From: Candidatus Heimdallarchaeota archaeon
GTDB lineage: Archaea > Asgardarchaeota > Heimdallarchaeia > Heimdallarchaeales > Heimdallarchaeaceae
DNA length: 37,610 nt
Assembly (NCBI GenBank): GCA_016839945.1
Contig: JAEOTE010000100.1
Span: forward strand, 1 to 37,610
Reading direction: 5' to 3'
A program made the position numbers and the translations under genes. The notes under the pieces were generated by a model that ran no database searches, was not told the origin of the DNA, and saw only the letters and a program-made list of their open reading frames with translations. Positions 14,346 through 21,617 of the stretch are shown piece by piece (positions within the stretch are counted from its first letter, which is position 1; each line of letters starts with the position of its first letter).

Positions 14346-16052
14346 ATGATTAAGGGATATCTCAATTTCGTCTTACATGGACATTTACCTTGGGTATTGC
14401 AACAAGGAGTGTGGCCACACGGAGAAAATTGGCTATTTGAAGCAGCTGCTGAGACATACTCTCCAACTCTCTCTATGTTAGCTAATCTTTACGAACAGAA
14501 AGGATATACAGAAATGCTTACTGTTGGCATAACTCCAGTTTTAGGAGAACAATTAGCTCATCCTAGATTTAAAGAAAGTTTTGAGGGATATCTTCAGGAC
14601 AGAATAAATGCAAGCTATAAGGATAAAGATTACTTTAACTGGGTAGGAGAATCTGAAAATTCAAAACTAGCTGAAGACTGGGCTAATTATTATACTTCAG
14701 TCAAAGAACAATTCGTTGAAAGATTCCATAAAGACCTGATAGGTGGGTACAAATATCTTCAAGATGAAAATGCAATAGAAATTATCTCTAGTGGTGTAAC
14801 TCATGGTTACCTACCCTTATTAGGTAAAGAAGAAACTGTAAATGCTCAAATACGAGCAGGACAAGCAATATATCAGAAATTATTTGGGAGAGAAAATTCA
14901 CAAGGTATCTGGCTTCCAGAACTGGCTTATAGACCGAGTTATAAATGGAAGAATCCTATTACAGGTAAAGAAATCGATAGGAAAGGAATAGAGCATTTCA
15001 TTGAGAAAAACAACATAAAATATTTCATAGTTGATACACCTTTATTAAGAGGGGGAAAAGGAATAGGAGCGTATCTAAAAAGGTTTGATGCGTTACAGCT
15101 TCTCTGGAAACAGTTTGAAAAAGAGAAAAAGGAATTGAAAGGAACTGATGAATCAATCTATAGACCATATTATGCTAATGAGAATGTAAAATTCTTTACT
15201 AGAGACGATAAAACAGGGATTCTTGTATGGAGTGGAGATGTGGGTTTTCCAGGAGATGGTTGGTATTTGGAATTTCATAAGAAACACCACCAATCTGGGC
15301 ATAGATATTGGCGGGTAACTGGAAAGGATGTAGATCTAGGAGAAAAAGAAATTTATGAACCAGATAAAATTGTAGAAAGGTTAGATGAAAATTCAGCATA
15401 CTTTGTAAAGATAGCTAAGGATAACCTGTTAAATTATTATGATCATGAGAAAACTCCTGGAATTGTAGTAAGTCCTTATGATTTCGAACTATTTGGTCAT
15501 TGGTGGTTTGAAGCCATTGGTTTTCTAGAAAGAGTTATAACACAAGTAAGTGAAGATGAAGAAATAGCAACAACTACTGGAACTAAATATCTAGAAACAT
15601 TTCCACCTGAGAAGAAGAAGATTATTTCTCTACCTGAAGGAAGTTGGGGAGAAGGTAATTTTCATTGGATTTGGTTAAATCAAGATACTCAATGGTGCTG
15701 GAAATATATCTATGAATGCGAAGAAATCTATCTAAAAGCTGTTAAAGAATATAGAAAAAAACATCATAGTTATTTTGAAAATGCTACAAGAATAATTAAT
15801 CAAATGGGGAGAGAATTATTCCTCTTATCATCCTCTGATTGGGAATTCCTCATTTCTACATGGGGGGCTCGAGATTATGCTGAACACAGGGTGACTCTTC
15901 ATTACGAGAATTTTAAGAAACTTCATAGCTTCTTTAAACATGCTTGCTCTAATCCTTTAACTGATGAACAGAATCAATTTCTGGGTAATTTGGAAGAAGA
16001 AGATAGTTTAGCTTATGAAATGAATGTACAAGAATGGTTCAGTAAAAATTAA
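14346..16052 (+). CDS. 1,4-alpha-glucan branching enzyme, GH57 family
   Basis: A 568-residue cytosolic enzyme of glycoside hydrolase family 57 with a C-terminal DUF1957-type domain, the architecture of archaeal glycogen branching enzymes. Motif 1 is LHGHLPWV at the N-terminus and motif 2 is VGITPVLGEQLAHP. The catalytic nucleophile is E192 in GIWLPELAYRP, and the acid/base is D379 in SPYDFELFGHWWFEA. The last part (GRELFLLSSSDWEFLISTWG, then ARDYAEHR) is typical of the C-terminal domain. It would introduce alpha-1,6 branches in glycogen, working with the glycogen synthase at 19016-20473. The TATA box at 14315-14326 supports the ATG, and an oligo-T tract follows the stop. Confidence 0.92.
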   Translation: MIKGYLNFVLHGHLPWVLQQGVWPHGENWLFEAAAETYSPTLSMLANLYEQKGYTEMLTVGITPVLGEQLAHPRFKESFEGYLQDRINASYKDKDYFNWVGESENSKLAEDWANYYTSVKEQFVERFHKDLIGGYKYLQDENAIEIISSGVTHGYLPLLGKEETVNAQIRAGQAIYQKLFGRENSQGIWLPELAYRPSYKWKNPITGKEIDRKGIEHFIEKNNIKYFIVDTPLLRGGKGIGAYLKRFDALQLLWKQFEKEKKELKGTDESIYRPYYANENVKFFTRDDKTGILVWSGDVGFPGDGWYLEFHKKHHQSGHRYWRVTGKDVDLGEKEIYEPDKIVERLDENSAYFVKIAKDNLLNYYDHEKTPGIVVSPYDFELFGHWWFEAIGFLERVITQVSEDEEIATTTGTKYLETFPPEKKKIISLPEGSWGEGNFHWIWLNQDTQWCWKYIYECEEIYLKAVKEYRKKHHSYFENATRIINQMGRELFLLSSSDWEFLISTWGARDYAEHRVTLHYENFKKLHSFFKHACSNPLTDEQNQFLGNLEEEDSLAYEMNVQEWFSKN

Positions 16053-16179: not shown

Positions 16180-17922
16180 ATGAAAAACAAATTATTTTTT
16201 TATATAATTTTAACAGCGTTTATCACTCAGATTGTATCTGTTAATGGTGTTTTTCCTGAACCTGATCCTATTTTTGAATTAACTCTAATTTCTCCTTATG
16301 GTGGTTTTGATCTTATTGCTCAAGAATGGGAAAAACTGAGTATATCGACGGAGATTATACACCTAAGTTATCCTGAAATTGGTACAAGAGTTTGGGACTA
16401 TCCATTTTCAAATTACAGTTATATCCCAACTTACATTGAAGGAGGGTATGATCTTGTTATAATTGGTTATACACATCCTAATTATGTTAATCTGGGAAAT
16501 TTATTTAGTGAAGACGAAATAATTCCAGAAGGGATAAATTATTCTCAATTTAACAATACTGATTTTGAAACTGCATTAGATAGTTTTGTCTATGAACAGA
16601 ATTTAAATCAAAGATTACAATATTATTATGAACTACAAAGAATAATACATGAAGAAGTTCCTTCAATAGGTATAATCAATGATGCTGATTTTTTTGCATT
16701 TAATGAAAATCTTGTAGGAATAAATCCCAATCTATTACGTCAGAGAAATCATAGGATTGAATATTGGGATGATCCTTTTGATCATATAATTAATGTTGCT
16801 ATTGCATATTACTTCAATCAACACAATCCTTTCAAACATTTTATTGATGTTGATAACTTGTGGATGCGTAGTGTTTATGGTTCTCTACTAAAACCATCAC
16901 ATGATAACATAGAATTTGAACCTTACATTGCAGAAAATTATTCAATGAGCTCTGATATGCTCACTATAACAGTTGATATAGATAAAAATGCTAGATTCAG
17001 TGATAATAATTCAGTTTTAGCTGAAGATGTCAAATATTCTTATGAATTTTACAATGATCCTAATCTTGATCACTATAGTTATTTTAGTAGATTTTTTGAA
17101 AATAATGATGCATTCGAAATAATAGATTTAGATACTATTAGATTTCATTTGAAAGAAATTGTACCTTGTTTTCAAGAATTATTAACATATGGAATAATAG
17201 ACAAGAGTAGAGTAGAACCAGTATTTGTTGCAAATGGGTATAGTATTTTCGATTCTTTAGCTTTATCTGGGGCAGTAAATGATTCGCTAGTAACATCCTG
17301 TGGTCCTTATAAATTAGTAGAATATAGTACTAATTCAGCTAAACTTATTCCAAATCCTTATTGGCACGGAATTTTTCCAGATTTAAATGAAATAAATATT
17401 ATTTATCTAGAATCTAATTCTGATTATATTGCTGAAATTTCATCTGGGAATATTGATATATTGGATTATATGTTTTGTTTTCAACCAGAGGATATTGATG
17501 CAATTTCAGGTGTAAAACCTGTTTTAGCTGAGAAACTTTACATTTATCAGCTAATATTAAATCAGAAGCATCCTATAATAGGAACAGGAGAACTTACACC
17601 GCTAGGATCTAAAGATGCTGTAAAAAAAATAAGACAAGCATTGAATCATGCAATTCCCCGTCAAGATATTGTAAATGACAAAGGAGGATTCGCAACCCCA
17701 GGAATAATCCCGATACCTTCTGCATGTGTATATTTTAATTCTAATTTACAAGCTTATTCATACAATTTATCCCTTGCAGAAAATCTACTTAAGGAAGCAG
17801 GATATCTTGAAGGAAAAAGTGGACCTACCACTCCTACGAAAAGTAATTTCCCAAACCTTGTTTTCATAATAGTATTATATTCTGTTTGTTATTTGTGCTA
17901 CAAAAAAAGAAAACGAAAATAA
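16180..17922 (+). CDS. Secreted, C-terminally anchored SBP_5-type solute-binding protein, apparently circularly permuted
   Basis: A 580-residue protein with a signal peptide (about 1-23), a C-terminal membrane helix (about 559-574) and the basic tail KKRKRK; it sits on the outer face of the membrane. The family is the peptide/nickel ABC-transporter binding proteins (SBP_5). The normal N-terminal half appears late, from about residue 200: NPFKHFIDVDNLWMRSVYGS, EPYIAENYSMSSDM, FSDNNSVLAEDVKYSYEF, SCGPYKLVEY and finally AENLLKEAGYLEG (ending near 545). The segment that normally follows that last motif is instead at residues 32-195: FELTLISPYGG, YDLVIIGYTHP, YYYELQRIIHEEVPSIGII, LVGINP. No permease or ATPase gene is adjacent. 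Ligand unknown. GAAGGA lies five bases before the ATG. Confidence 0.82.
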   Translation: MKNKLFFYIILTAFITQIVSVNGVFPEPDPIFELTLISPYGGFDLIAQEWEKLSISTEIIHLSYPEIGTRVWDYPFSNYSYIPTYIEGGYDLVIIGYTHPNYVNLGNLFSEDEIIPEGINYSQFNNTDFETALDSFVYEQNLNQRLQYYYELQRIIHEEVPSIGIINDADFFAFNENLVGINPNLLRQRNHRIEYWDDPFDHIINVAIAYYFNQHNPFKHFIDVDNLWMRSVYGSLLKPSHDNIEFEPYIAENYSMSSDMLTITVDIDKNARFSDNNSVLAEDVKYSYEFYNDPNLDHYSYFSRFFENNDAFEIIDLDTIRFHLKEIVPCFQELLTYGIIDKSRVEPVFVANGYSIFDSLALSGAVNDSLVTSCGPYKLVEYSTNSAKLIPNPYWHGIFPDLNEINIIYLESNSDYIAEISSGNIDILDYMFCFQPEDIDAISGVKPVLAEKLYIYQLILNQKHPIIGTGELTPLGSKDAVKKIRQALNHAIPRQDIVNDKGGFATPGIIPIPSACVYFNSNLQAYSYNLSLAENLLKEAGYLEGKSGPTTPTKSNFPNLVFIIVLYSVCYLCYKKRKRK

Positions 17923-18064: not shown

Positions 18065-19003
18065 ATGAAACTAAGAACAATAGTTATAGTTATACTATTG
18101 AGTATTGTCTCTTATTCTATAAACCTAAATATACCCTTGGTAAGTGCTAGATGTGAAAACAAAGAAACTACTTCTTTTTCTCCAAATGGATTAATTCAAC
18201 ATTCTCCAATTCGAATTATTTCAGATGAAAATCTTACAGCATACAATTTTCCTGGCTTAGGTACAGAAAATCATCCATATTTAATCAGAAATCTGAACAT
18301 AACAACTAATGAAAGAACGGGATTATACATTTCAAAAACAACCAAACACATTATTATTCAGAACTGCTATATTGATGCATTAAATTATGGCATTGAAATT
18401 GTGCATGTAGCTGATAATACTTTGTTATTGACTGAAAATACTCTTAAAAATAATAGATATTATGGAACTTTTTTTTGGAGAACAGCTTCATCTAATATCT
18501 CCTATAATTATTATTTCAATAATGGAGATGGATTAACTATGTTCTATTCAGATAAGACCTTTATTTCAAATAATACTTGCATTAATAATACAAATTACGG
18601 GATTTACTTATCTCGTTCAAAGTCATGCAATGTTACATATAACGTGCTAAAAGAGAATGAAAAGTATGGAGTTGTACTTGGACGTTACACAGAGTTTTGT
18701 GCAGTCCATCACAATTATTTTATCAACAATAACTTAGGTGGATCCTCTCAAGCTTATGATCATGGTTCAAATAACATTTTTTATGATTTAGAAACTAACG
18801 AAGGGAATTGGTGGAACGATTGTTTAAGTGAAAATTATGATATAGATGGCAATACTATGGCTGTTGATTTTTATCCACTTGGTAAAATACCTAATGAAGA
18901 AGAAATGCAAAGAACATCTTATAATTTACTTCTATCCTTGGTTCTGTTTCCTACAATAGCAGTTTTATATCTGCTACAAAAAAGAACAAAAAGAAAAAAC
19001 TAG
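18065..19003 (+). CDS. Secreted NosD-like parallel beta-helix protein, C-terminally anchored
   Basis: A 312-residue surface protein. A signal peptide covers about residues 1-28. A cap module follows, SPIRIISDENLTAYNFPGLG then TENHPYLIRNLNIT, and then short beta-helix repeats rich in Asn and Ser (NNRYYGTFFW, SKSCNVTYNVLKENEKYGVV, HHNYFINN). A closing module reads NEGNWWNDC and then VDFYPLGK. One membrane helix (about 284-304) and the tail KRTKRKN anchor it. The same start and end modules occur in the protein at 31066. NosD/pectate-lyase-like helices often bind sugars or mediate contact, but the ligand here is unknown. Asn-x-Ser/Thr sites are frequent, so N-glycosylation is likely. A TATA-like ATTAATATT lies about 40 bp upstream. 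Confidence 0.82.
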   Translation: MKLRTIVIVILLSIVSYSINLNIPLVSARCENKETTSFSPNGLIQHSPIRIISDENLTAYNFPGLGTENHPYLIRNLNITTNERTGLYISKTTKHIIIQNCYIDALNYGIEIVHVADNTLLLTENTLKNNRYYGTFFWRTASSNISYNYYFNNGDGLTMFYSDKTFISNNTCINNTNYGIYLSRSKSCNVTYNVLKENEKYGVVLGRYTEFCAVHHNYFINNNLGGSSQAYDHGSNNIFYDLETNEGNWWNDCLSENYDIDGNTMAVDFYPLGKIPNEEEMQRTSYNLLLSLVLFPTIAVLYLLQKRTKRKN

Positions 19004-19015
19004 ACTCTATTCTAA

Positions 19016-20473
19016 TTATCTTTTTTTATCTTGAGCTAGCTCGTAAACCTTTTGCCATTGTTTAGCAGCATTTTTCCAAGTAAAATCCAGGTTCATAATT
19101 TTCTTCTTGAGTTTTAGCCACTTCTCAGGTTCTTCTTTGTATACTTTAACAGCTCTTTTAACTGCAGCAAAAAACTCCTTTACATTAGGATTCTCAAAAA
19201 CAAATCCAGTCCCTTCTTCAGTTTTAGGGTCATAATTTTGTACAGTATCAGATAGTCCTCCTGTATTTCTAACAAGAGGTACTGTTCCATAAATCATTGA
19301 ATAGAGTTGATTTAATCCACAAGGTTCGTATTTAGATGGCATCAAGAATATATCTGCAGCTGCTTCAATTTGATGAGCAAGAGTGTTATCAAACATAATA
19401 TTTATTGAACTATTCTCATGATATTTTTCTTCTTTTTTCTTGAATTTTTTCTCAAGTTCAGGTTCTCCTGTTCCTAATAGAATGAACTGAACTTTCAGTT
19501 TCATAATATCATCGAACTTTTCAAGAATAAGGTCTAATCCTTTTTGAGTTGCTAATCTTGATATCACACCCAATATAGGCAAATCAGAGACGTTCAAATT
19601 GAGTTTATCTTGAAGATAACTTTTAGATTCAGTTTTACCTTTCAGATTCTTTGAATCATAATTCTTAACTAACAAAGGATCACTCTTTGGATTCCAGACA
19701 TTAAGATCAACTCCATGTACAATTCCATAAAGGTCTTCCTTTCTCTGTTCAATAAAGCTCTCTAAACCATATCCGAATTCTTTAGTTTGAATTTCTTCTG
19801 CATATTTTGAACTTACAGTTGTAAGAATATCTGAATAAACAATTGCTCCTTTCATGAAATTTATTTTACCATAAAAACCAAGGAGATCCTCATCAAAATA
19901 GACATCTGCAAGTTCAGCATCTGCAATATCCTCAAAAGGGTAGATTCCTTGATAGCCGATATTGTGAATTGTAAAAACAGACTTTGATTTCTTGAACAGA
20001 TCAACATCGTTATATTCTGTTTTCAAGAAGAAAGGTAGCAATCCTGTATGCCAATCATTACAATGAATAATATCCGGAGAAAATTTTAACCACCTTAGCA
20101 TTGCAAAAACTGATTTTGTGAATGTTAGAAATCTGTATGCACTGTCTGAATAATCCTCTCCATCTTCATCCACGTAAATTCCTTCTCTGTATAGATAGGG
20201 ATTCTTGATGAAATAAACTGGAACTTTCGAGTGCGGAATAAAAGAAACATAAAGATCGAAAAGCTCTACTTTTTCTCCTATTTTTGCAATAATGTTCTCT
20301 TTAACTAATTGAAGTCTAAACTTCTTAGTATCAATGGATTTGTAAAGAGGTGTGATAATAACTATTTTATGACCTAACCCTTGCATAGCCTTAGGAAATG
20401 CTGCTGAAACATCTCCTAATCCCCCTGTTTTGGAAAAAGGTGCAATTTCAGCTGTTACGAATGCTATCCTCAT
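19016..20473 (-). CDS. glgA: Glycogen synthase (GT5)
   Basis: A 485-residue GT-B glycosyltransferase of the GlgA family. The nucleotide-sugar loop KTGGLGDV (residues 15-22) directly follows the start, HCNDWHTGLLP and FTIHNIGYQG are typical of the N-terminal domain, and ISRLATQKGLDLI and EPCGLNQLYSMIYGTVP form the C-terminal donor site. It extends alpha-1,4-glucan chains from ADP- or UDP-glucose in the cytosol. The frame opens at a TTG (20494), but ATG 20473 is preceded six bases upstream by AAGGAG and fits the family start exactly. It overlaps the end of the upstream GH57 gene by 26 bp, so the two are probably translationally coupled. It is convergent with the beta-helix gene. Confidence 0.94.
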   Translation of the reverse strand: MRIAFVTAEIAPFSKTGGLGDVSAAFPKAMQGLGHKIVIITPLYKSIDTKKFRLQLVKENIIAKIGEKVELFDLYVSFIPHSKVPVYFIKNPYLYREGIYVDEDGEDYSDSAYRFLTFTKSVFAMLRWLKFSPDIIHCNDWHTGLLPFFLKTEYNDVDLFKKSKSVFTIHNIGYQGIYPFEDIADAELADVYFDEDLLGFYGKINFMKGAIVYSDILTTVSSKYAEEIQTKEFGYGLESFIEQRKEDLYGIVHGVDLNVWNPKSDPLLVKNYDSKNLKGKTESKSYLQDKLNLNVSDLPILGVISRLATQKGLDLILEKFDDIMKLKVQFILLGTGEPELEKKFKKKEEKYHENSSINIMFDNTLAHQIEAAADIFLMPSKYEPCGLNQLYSMIYGTVPLVRNTGGLSDTVQNYDPKTEEGTGFVFENPNVKEFFAAVKRAVKVYKEEPEKWLKLKKKIMNLDFTWKNAAKQWQKVYELAQDKKR

Positions 20474-21617
20474 TTTTTTCTCCTTTTTGTTCAACTATTT
20501 CTATTATTCTTTGAATAATGTCATTTGATAGGTTAAAAATTATTTGTTTGGACCTTTTAGGCAAGCCATCAATCATTTTAACGAGTGATTTTCTTTGTAA
20601 TTGTAAACCTGTTAATATTAATTCAGGACTCCACCAATCCCTTGAAGCCCACCAAAATTGACAAGAATACAAAGAAGATTGATAATCATCAAACCATTCC
20701 CCTCTATCTATAAATTCCCTCACTCTTTCAAGAAAATCAATATGACTTTGTTGAAGCTGATGTATTGCATTAAATGGATGGTTCCATAAAGGTAATGGTA
20801 TATTGTCTTCCATATCTTGATCAGATGTTGACCAAGAAGAAGTTAAGAAATTCTTTATTTTCTTATTTAATGGAAATTCTCCAATGCTTTTAGAAAGAGT
20901 ATTCATTTGAGTAGATTTTGCTAAATCAAAGAAAAAATTATAGTACCTCTTATGATGCTCTCCAAATGTTTCTAAATCCATAGCTAGTAGGATAGGACAT
21001 TTTTGATTGTCATACTGATCACGTAAATCCTTAATTGCAGCATCTACATTTCCATTATACTGATTAAAAGCGATATTATTACTCAATTCCTTATCTCTCT
21101 TAATTAAGAAGACGGATTTACCATCCTCTAGCTCATAATACCCTCCGATTTTGAGATTGTTTATATTCTCTGGTGCAACGATTATCTTATAACCTTCTTT
21201 TACTATCTGGGGAATTACTTCCCCTGATATAGCTAATTCTGGAGGGAAGAACACTGAGCTGTTAACACCTAAAATATTGTAGGTTAACTTCTTTTGTTTG
21301 TTTATCTGATATCTTTGATCTTTTTTTAGAATCAGTGGTAAAATAGGGTGGTAGAACGCTGATCCCATAAGTTCTATTTGTTTAGATAGAATACCTTCCT
21401 CAATTAGATGTAAAACATCTGGATAACTTGTAGCAAATTTCTCTAATAAACAACCAGAAATATTTAATGTTATTTTGATTTCTGGATTTTCTAATAGTTT
21501 TCTTAAGAAAGGAATATAGCATTTTGAAATTATTCGATTGTATATCTCTTCCTTTTGAGTAATAGGTTGATAAGCATGTAAAACGAAAACCAAAGGGATT
21601 TTTTCCTTATTTTCCAT
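20448..21617 (-). CDS. GH57 family alpha-amylase/glucanotransferase-like protein
   Basis: A 389-residue cytosolic glycoside hydrolase of family 57. The opening FVLHAYQP matches motif 1 (HxxQP type). QIELMGSAFYHPILPL is the second motif, FFPPELAISGE gives the nucleophile candidate E127, and AMDLETFGEHH gives acid/base D214. The C-terminal QFWWASRDWW region is usual for short GH57 amylases. It likely trims or rearranges alpha-glucan and lies directly upstream of glycogen synthase, overlapping it. The ATG at 21617 is preceded six bases upstream by AAGGTGA. Specificity (amylase, 4-alpha-glucanotransferase or other) cannot be settled by reading. Confidence 0.86.
   Translation of the reverse strand: MENKEKIPLVFVLHAYQPITQKEEIYNRIISKCYIPFLRKLLENPEIKITLNISGCLLEKFATSYPDVLHLIEEGILSKQIELMGSAFYHPILPLILKKDQRYQINKQKKLTYNILGVNSSVFFPPELAISGEVIPQIVKEGYKIIVAPENINNLKIGGYYELEDGKSVFLIKRDKELSNNIAFNQYNGNVDAAIKDLRDQYDNQKCPILLAMDLETFGEHHKRYYNFFFDLAKSTQMNTLSKSIGEFPLNKKIKNFLTSSWSTSDQDMEDNIPLPLWNHPFNAIHQLQQSHIDFLERVREFIDRGEWFDDYQSSLYSCQFWWASRDWWSPELILTGLQLQRKSLVKMIDGLPKRSKQIIFNLSNDIIQRIIEIVEQKGEKNEDSIRNS

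Follow-up and report, generated by a model that had tools for sequence, protein, structure and literature searches.

A circularly permuted OppA/DppA-type solute-binding protein with a predicted membrane anchor in a Heimdall archaeon

Introduction

Proteins of the OppA/DppA type are among the best studied of all binding proteins. A natural circular permutation has been described in a solute-binding protein (SBP) of a different fold, TpMglB-2 (Tp0684), a glucose-binding ABC SBP designated “Type Ic/Cluster Bc”, for which both ligand binding and conformational change were shown (PMC4990184). In Pseudomonas aeruginosa, one DppBCDF is reported to be served by five SBPs, DppA1-A5 (PMC4206461). For the OppA/DppA family itself, no report of permutation was found in the open-access literature.

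The protein considered here is encoded in a stretch of 37,610 nucleotides (the window) from a Candidatus Heimdallarchaeota archaeon (contig JAEOTE010000100.1), whose genome is 3.0 Mb in 186 contigs. A preliminary description, made from the sequence alone, proposed that one of its genes encodes an SBP of the SBP_5 family in which the order of the landmarks is rotated, and that the protein may be a surface receptor.

Results

The gene and the parts of its protein

The gene occupies positions 16180 to 17922 on the forward strand, the strand of all parts given below, and is an ORF of 580 aa with an ATG start; full-length relatives were found in 23 same-family genomes. Those relatives that carry a name are Asgard archaea of the Candidatus Heimdallarchaeota, among them Ca. 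Heimdallarchaeum endolithica PR6, whose genome is complete. The protein begins with a predicted signal peptide (residues 1 to ~25, positions 16180 to 16254), modelled as a hydrophobic helix at residues 2-20 and a low-confidence stretch at 21-25. Residues 30-198 (16267 to 16773) correspond to the C-terminal third of a canonical OppA/DppA protein, as judged from out-of-order PDB matches and from one full rotation in a doubled profile (see below), and residues 199-545 (16774 to 17814) correspond to the N-terminal two thirds, as judged from Pfam and from PDB matches to chain residues ~30-350. Between them, the junction that fuses the old C-terminus to the old N-terminus (residues 183-210, 16726 to 16809) is predicted to be ordered, with a pLDDT of ~96-97 in the blocks covering residues 181-210, and it contains W196, which is invariant in 24 relatives and also in a set of 80. 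The second piece runs to the AENLLKEAGY helix, the site of the cut, and is followed by a flexible linker (residues 546-557, 17815 to 17850; pLDDT <50) and a C-terminal transmembrane (TM) anchor with a basic tail (residues 558-579, 17851 to 17916, a helix in the model).

The landmarks lie, in sequence and model, at the residues where the preliminary description had placed them: FELTLISP at 32, YDLVIIGY at 90, LVGINP at ~178 and AENLLKEAGY at ~533-542. Judged by simple hydropathy and the model, the protein has both an export signal and a membrane anchor, and its TM helix leads into neither a signalling domain nor a long cytoplasmic tail.

The window protein has diverged even from its closest relatives (~40%), and its residue 102 (16483 to 16485) is a Tyr; of the 80 sequences aligned, 73 have Asp and 4 have Glu in this column. 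We take this column to lie near Asp408 of DppA, the binder of the peptide amino group, on an alignment that may be one or two residues off. Given the Tyr in place of Asp/Glu, and the divergence, the ligand of the window copy may differ from that of its relatives.

Evidence for a rotated chain

In Pfam, the match to SBP_bac_5 (E 3.1e-41; 142.1 bits versus a curated cut-off of 32.4) placed positions 1-288 of the model on residues 245-555, so that the usual start of the domain comes 245 residues into the protein. PDB searches returned the two pieces in inverted order, with residues 228-545 matching 3tpa 35-350 and residues 49-182 matching 3tpa 378-498. A profile of 80 relatives, searched against the PDB, aligned at its positions 99-195 with 8efz 384-481 (i-E 1.3e-7) and at its positions 232-559 with 31-323, the N-terminal piece being significant on its own. 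When residues 30-198 were moved in silico behind residues 199-550, there was one collinear match, to 3m8u 31-483, at 66.2 versus 54.9 bits. Among the matches listed (60 to 100 distinct solved sequences), no PDB chain was collinear with the permuted order over the whole length, and neither was any NCBIfam model among those listed.

A stricter test of the rotation used a profile built only from 23 canonical-order Asgard SBPs and joined head to tail, with which all ORFs were searched. The window protein aligned to this doubled, canonical-only profile in one piece, at 303.4 bits versus 224.5 for the best single-copy match, starting at position 397 and ending at position 368 of 548; across three doubled models the start fell at 360-397 and the end at 358-376, with a span of 0.95-1.02 of the model. 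The median gain from doubling was ~0.5 bit for canonical proteins and 158 bits for window-type proteins (those with the order of the window protein). As a control, canonical proteins were rotated at random: the test placed the cut with a median error of 1% of model length (21% at worst), and 19 of the 23 gave the full span.

The circular permutation put forward in the preliminary description is supported by independent sequence tests (Pfam, PDB, reordering and the doubled profile) and by the fold model, and the length, as that description also held, is that of one complete fold. By sequence match the protein belongs to SBP_5 (PF00496); no part of the canonical chain is missing, but the parts are not in canonical N-to-C order, and it is classed as a permuted variant. 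At the level of sequence, the rotated domain order, with a linker and a membrane anchor after it, is confirmed.

The predicted fold

From a single sequence AlphaFold2 reached a pLDDT of only 31.7, and an alignment of 80 permuted relatives was used instead; this yielded a pLDDT of 91.5, a pTM of 0.85 and one confident fold through the fused junction. The confident region extends from residue ~31 to 545, residues 183-210 included, and confidence was lower in the signal region, in the linker and, to a lesser degree, in the TM helix. All 50 rows listed by Foldseek were SBP_5-type proteins, with ~235-436 columns aligned and TM scores of 0.29-0.51; as Foldseek is a sequential aligner, from which partial alignments are expected for a rotated chain, these were counted as support, not proof. 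The preliminary description had named, as the outcome that would speak against it, a model in which residues 32-195 form an independent domain and residues 200-545 alone make a complete SBP. This is not the outcome: the first piece is the C-terminal third that the second lacks, and Foldseek aligned only part of the chain with canonical SBPs.

Copies in Heimdall genomes

In the window genome, ten window-type proteins are complete and two are partial, and its one canonical SBP is encoded within a DppBCDF operon; window-type copies were present in every same-genus and same-family genome searched. The complete PR6 genome has eleven permuted SBPs that are complete, together with one permuted gene carrying a frameshift and one short remnant, and the searches found no canonical SBP in it. 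Half of the window-genome copies (5/10) and three of those in PR6 make up a divergent subclass, whose assignment rests on a model made from permuted sequences, because only the family-derived doubled model aligns them over their full length. A set of 103 complete window-type proteins was nearly uniform at its ends, with a hydrophobic N-terminus in 101 and a C-terminal TM segment in 102. Two irregular copies stand out: a 407-aa permuted relative in the window genome (L033:7653-8876, contig C76) in which the greater part of the canonical N-terminal two thirds is missing, either a mini or a decaying form, and a window-type SBP gene of PR6 (L279:3410-5354) that is split across three frames.

Other cut points and other lineages

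The doubled-profile test revealed three further cut classes in other Asgard genomes, at model positions ~207, ~290 and ~429. The 207 class comprises 37-39 proteins of families f25 (dominant) and f5, and its rotation can be seen with Pfam alone, as profile positions 143-364 precede positions 2-141 within one ORF. The 290 class comprises two proteins (L290:2846-4876 and L291:5100-6845, the latter incomplete, its sequence being masked near the end) and the 429 class one (L171:789-2774). In the 207 class, and likewise for L290 and for L171, start and end positions coincide, as rotation demands. Two proteins called for a decision: L223 was counted as window type and not as 429 type, its N-terminal match being weak and its end lying at 0.68 of the model, and L352:3151-5001 (Natronorubrum) was kept unclassified despite a canonical label from the script, its match being partial and its sister permuted. 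The loci of the 207 class include L256, L257, L274, L260-L265, L331 and L336, and two of its members have long C-terminal extensions, with total lengths of 1076 and 1080 aa.

Beyond the Asgard archaea, the window-type order was found on plasmids of haloarchaea (Halobaculum, Halomarina, Natrononativus, Halorussus and Halalkalicoccus) and of Alphaproteobacteria (Salipiger, Nitratireductor, Neorhizobium and Microvirga); in the same plasmid collection, 207-type and 429-type queries found no place covering 80% of the query. The permutation is therefore no one-off: the permuted proteins form a large family, in which the chain has been opened at several different places. A restriction of the permutation to this gene, or to Heimdall archaea, was likewise rejected.

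History of the chain order

In trees built on reordered sequences, the 207 class was recovered as a single clade and the proteins of the 290 and 429 classes as each other's sisters (SH-aLRT 99 in both cases), and the window-type and canonical orders were each scattered. AU tests on a 41-row set rejected a single clade both for window-type rows (p 8.5e-5) and for canonical rows (p 2.6e-4), the groups being defined by order but the tested sets picked after the first tree, and some branches being long. With both single clades rejected, the order has changed at least twice on these trees. In families f2-f4, orphans with the canonical order group within a largely permuted clade, which suggests a return to the canonical order, with repeated origin at the same site as the alternative. 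In a strict AU test, a single clade of window-type proteins from the most closely related families was not rejected (p 0.078), and we therefore do not present a reversion within it as demonstrated. The broadest reading is that archaeal SBP_5 proteins have been permuted repeatedly, with at least four cut points in Asgard genomes and switching both ways, including from permuted to canonical in families related to the window genome; we hold this tentatively, at slightly less than an even chance.

The permuted order would probably have arisen by tandem duplication, followed by loss of the outer parts. The search for homologues that the preliminary description had recommended found permuted relatives widely and also a tandem copy, a single Asgard ORF of 1663 aa (L356:1783-6774; G080, C32) with two complete canonical SBP_5 domains at residues 50-546 and 600-1071, and so the intermediate demanded by the duplication model can exist.

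Neighbourhoods and importers

A homology search of the window found no transporter gene of the Dpp type, which agrees with the earlier observation that none is adjacent. The window gene is not encoded beside permease and ATPase genes, whereas genes of the same order elsewhere (in haloarchaea, Alphaproteobacteria and other Asgard genomes) often are, within ordinary Dpp operons. In Halobaculum, Halomarina, Natrononativus, Halorussus, Halalkalicoccus, Salipiger and Neorhizobium, and in two Asgard genomes (G182 and G047), window-type genes directly adjoin genes for permeases and ATPases of the Dpp type; at several plasmid loci the immediate neighbours are two permease and one or two ATPase genes. 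Among ~87 window-type SBPs sampled from Heimdallarchaeaceae and other named Heimdall loci, a few of which may be duplicates, none had a Dpp-type permease within 6 kb.

PR6 has one DppBCDF operon (L325; checked with Pfam) and one DppBC pair, neither with an adjacent SBP gene, and the window genome has DppBCDF sets without an SBP (L328 and L330), the contig of L328 ending soon after dppF. In the SBP-less operons at L325:5429-8393 and L328:4851-7854, DppB has 573-586 aa and DppC 408-410 aa, compared with 330 and 308 aa in the canonical operon; at L325 the additional permease length is N-terminal to the permease domain.

The neighbours of the gene within the window are a GH57 branching-enzyme-like gene (14346 to 16052) and a gene for a NosD/beta-helix protein with an apparent signal peptide and a C-terminal TM segment (18065 to 19003), beyond which lies a gene that is glycogen synthase-like by eye only (19016 to 20494). 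These sugar-metabolism neighbours were considered with regard to the ligand, and no assignment was made from them.

Discussion

We conclude with good confidence that the window protein is a membrane-anchored SBP of the OppA/DppA family with a circularly permuted fold, most likely serving an unlinked DppBCDF importer. The old N- and C-termini would be joined by the ordered junction, and the new ends would open in the second lobe, past the AENLLKEAGY helix. After export, the lobes would form the usual clam-shell and close around a small molecule, a peptide or a similar oligomer being the probable ligand. In all four cut classes the new ends presumably fall within the second lobe or close beside it, on our reading of the family fold, and so the anchor would hold the other lobe than in canonical archaeal SBPs; the TM helix would keep the protein at the membrane via the second lobe instead of the first. 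The ligand would then be passed, most likely, to an ABC importer of the DppBCDF type encoded elsewhere in the genome, with docking to DppBC. For the Heimdall archaea this partnership stays an inference, as no Dpp permease lies near the window-type genes sampled there.

The same absence of transporter genes, around the window copy and its ~87 relatives, is what a stand-alone surface receptor or scavenger with the same permuted fold, feeding no ABC importer, would also show, and the TM anchor, the many paralogs and the loss of the acidic site residue in the window copy fit such a protein. However, nothing past the TM helix resembles a signalling domain or a long cytoplasmic tail, PR6 retains Dpp permeases while no canonical SBP was found in it, and the same permuted order occurs within Dpp operons of other lineages. 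For the last reason in particular, the surface receptor of the preliminary description is a weaker idea than a binding protein of an unlinked importer, and we regard it as unlikely. It is less probable still that the permuted chain functions only as a domain-swapped dimer, with each clam-shell made from two chains, as the single-chain model (a monomer was modelled) is confident throughout and none of the results of these analyses speaks for a swap. Although SBP genes do form tandem arrays and one fused pair, there is hardly any chance that the protein is not permuted at all, being two unrelated domains, a fragment of a tandem array or an assembly chimera, given that it has one complete fold length with a single signal peptide and a single anchor, that its N-terminal piece itself matches the C-terminal third of an SBP, and that a complete genome and finished plasmids from organisms in culture carry the same order.

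The recurrence of this rotation and of three others across Asgard archaea shows that even in so intensively studied a family of transport proteins the chain can be opened and rejoined in several places. Annotation does not reveal the rotation, as domain searches report permuted proteins as ordinary SBPs, and it bears on how Asgard nutrition is read, since permuted forms dominate several genomes.

By sequence the window protein is a member of the family of OppA, DppA, NikA and GsiB (SBP_5/PF00496; cluster C SBPs), with every part of the canonical chain in place, but its chain order is rotated by about a third and its anchor follows the helix of lobe two. Natural permutation is known for type I SBPs through TpMglB-2, and its occurrence in the OppA/DppA class appears, from sequence and as far as the open-access literature goes, to be new. 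The sequence and structure matches listed for the window protein are SBP_5 proteins, which sets it apart from type I (Type Ic/Cluster Bc). DppA1-A5 of P. aeruginosa resemble the Heimdall arrangement in that several SBPs serve one importer; the abstract of that account describes them as orthologous SBPs and does not mention permutation (PMC4206461). TpMglB-2 is likewise a naturally permuted ABC solute-binding protein tethered to a membrane, but that protein has a type I sugar fold, another cut and is one permutant, whereas the window family, known from sequences and models, has four cut points.
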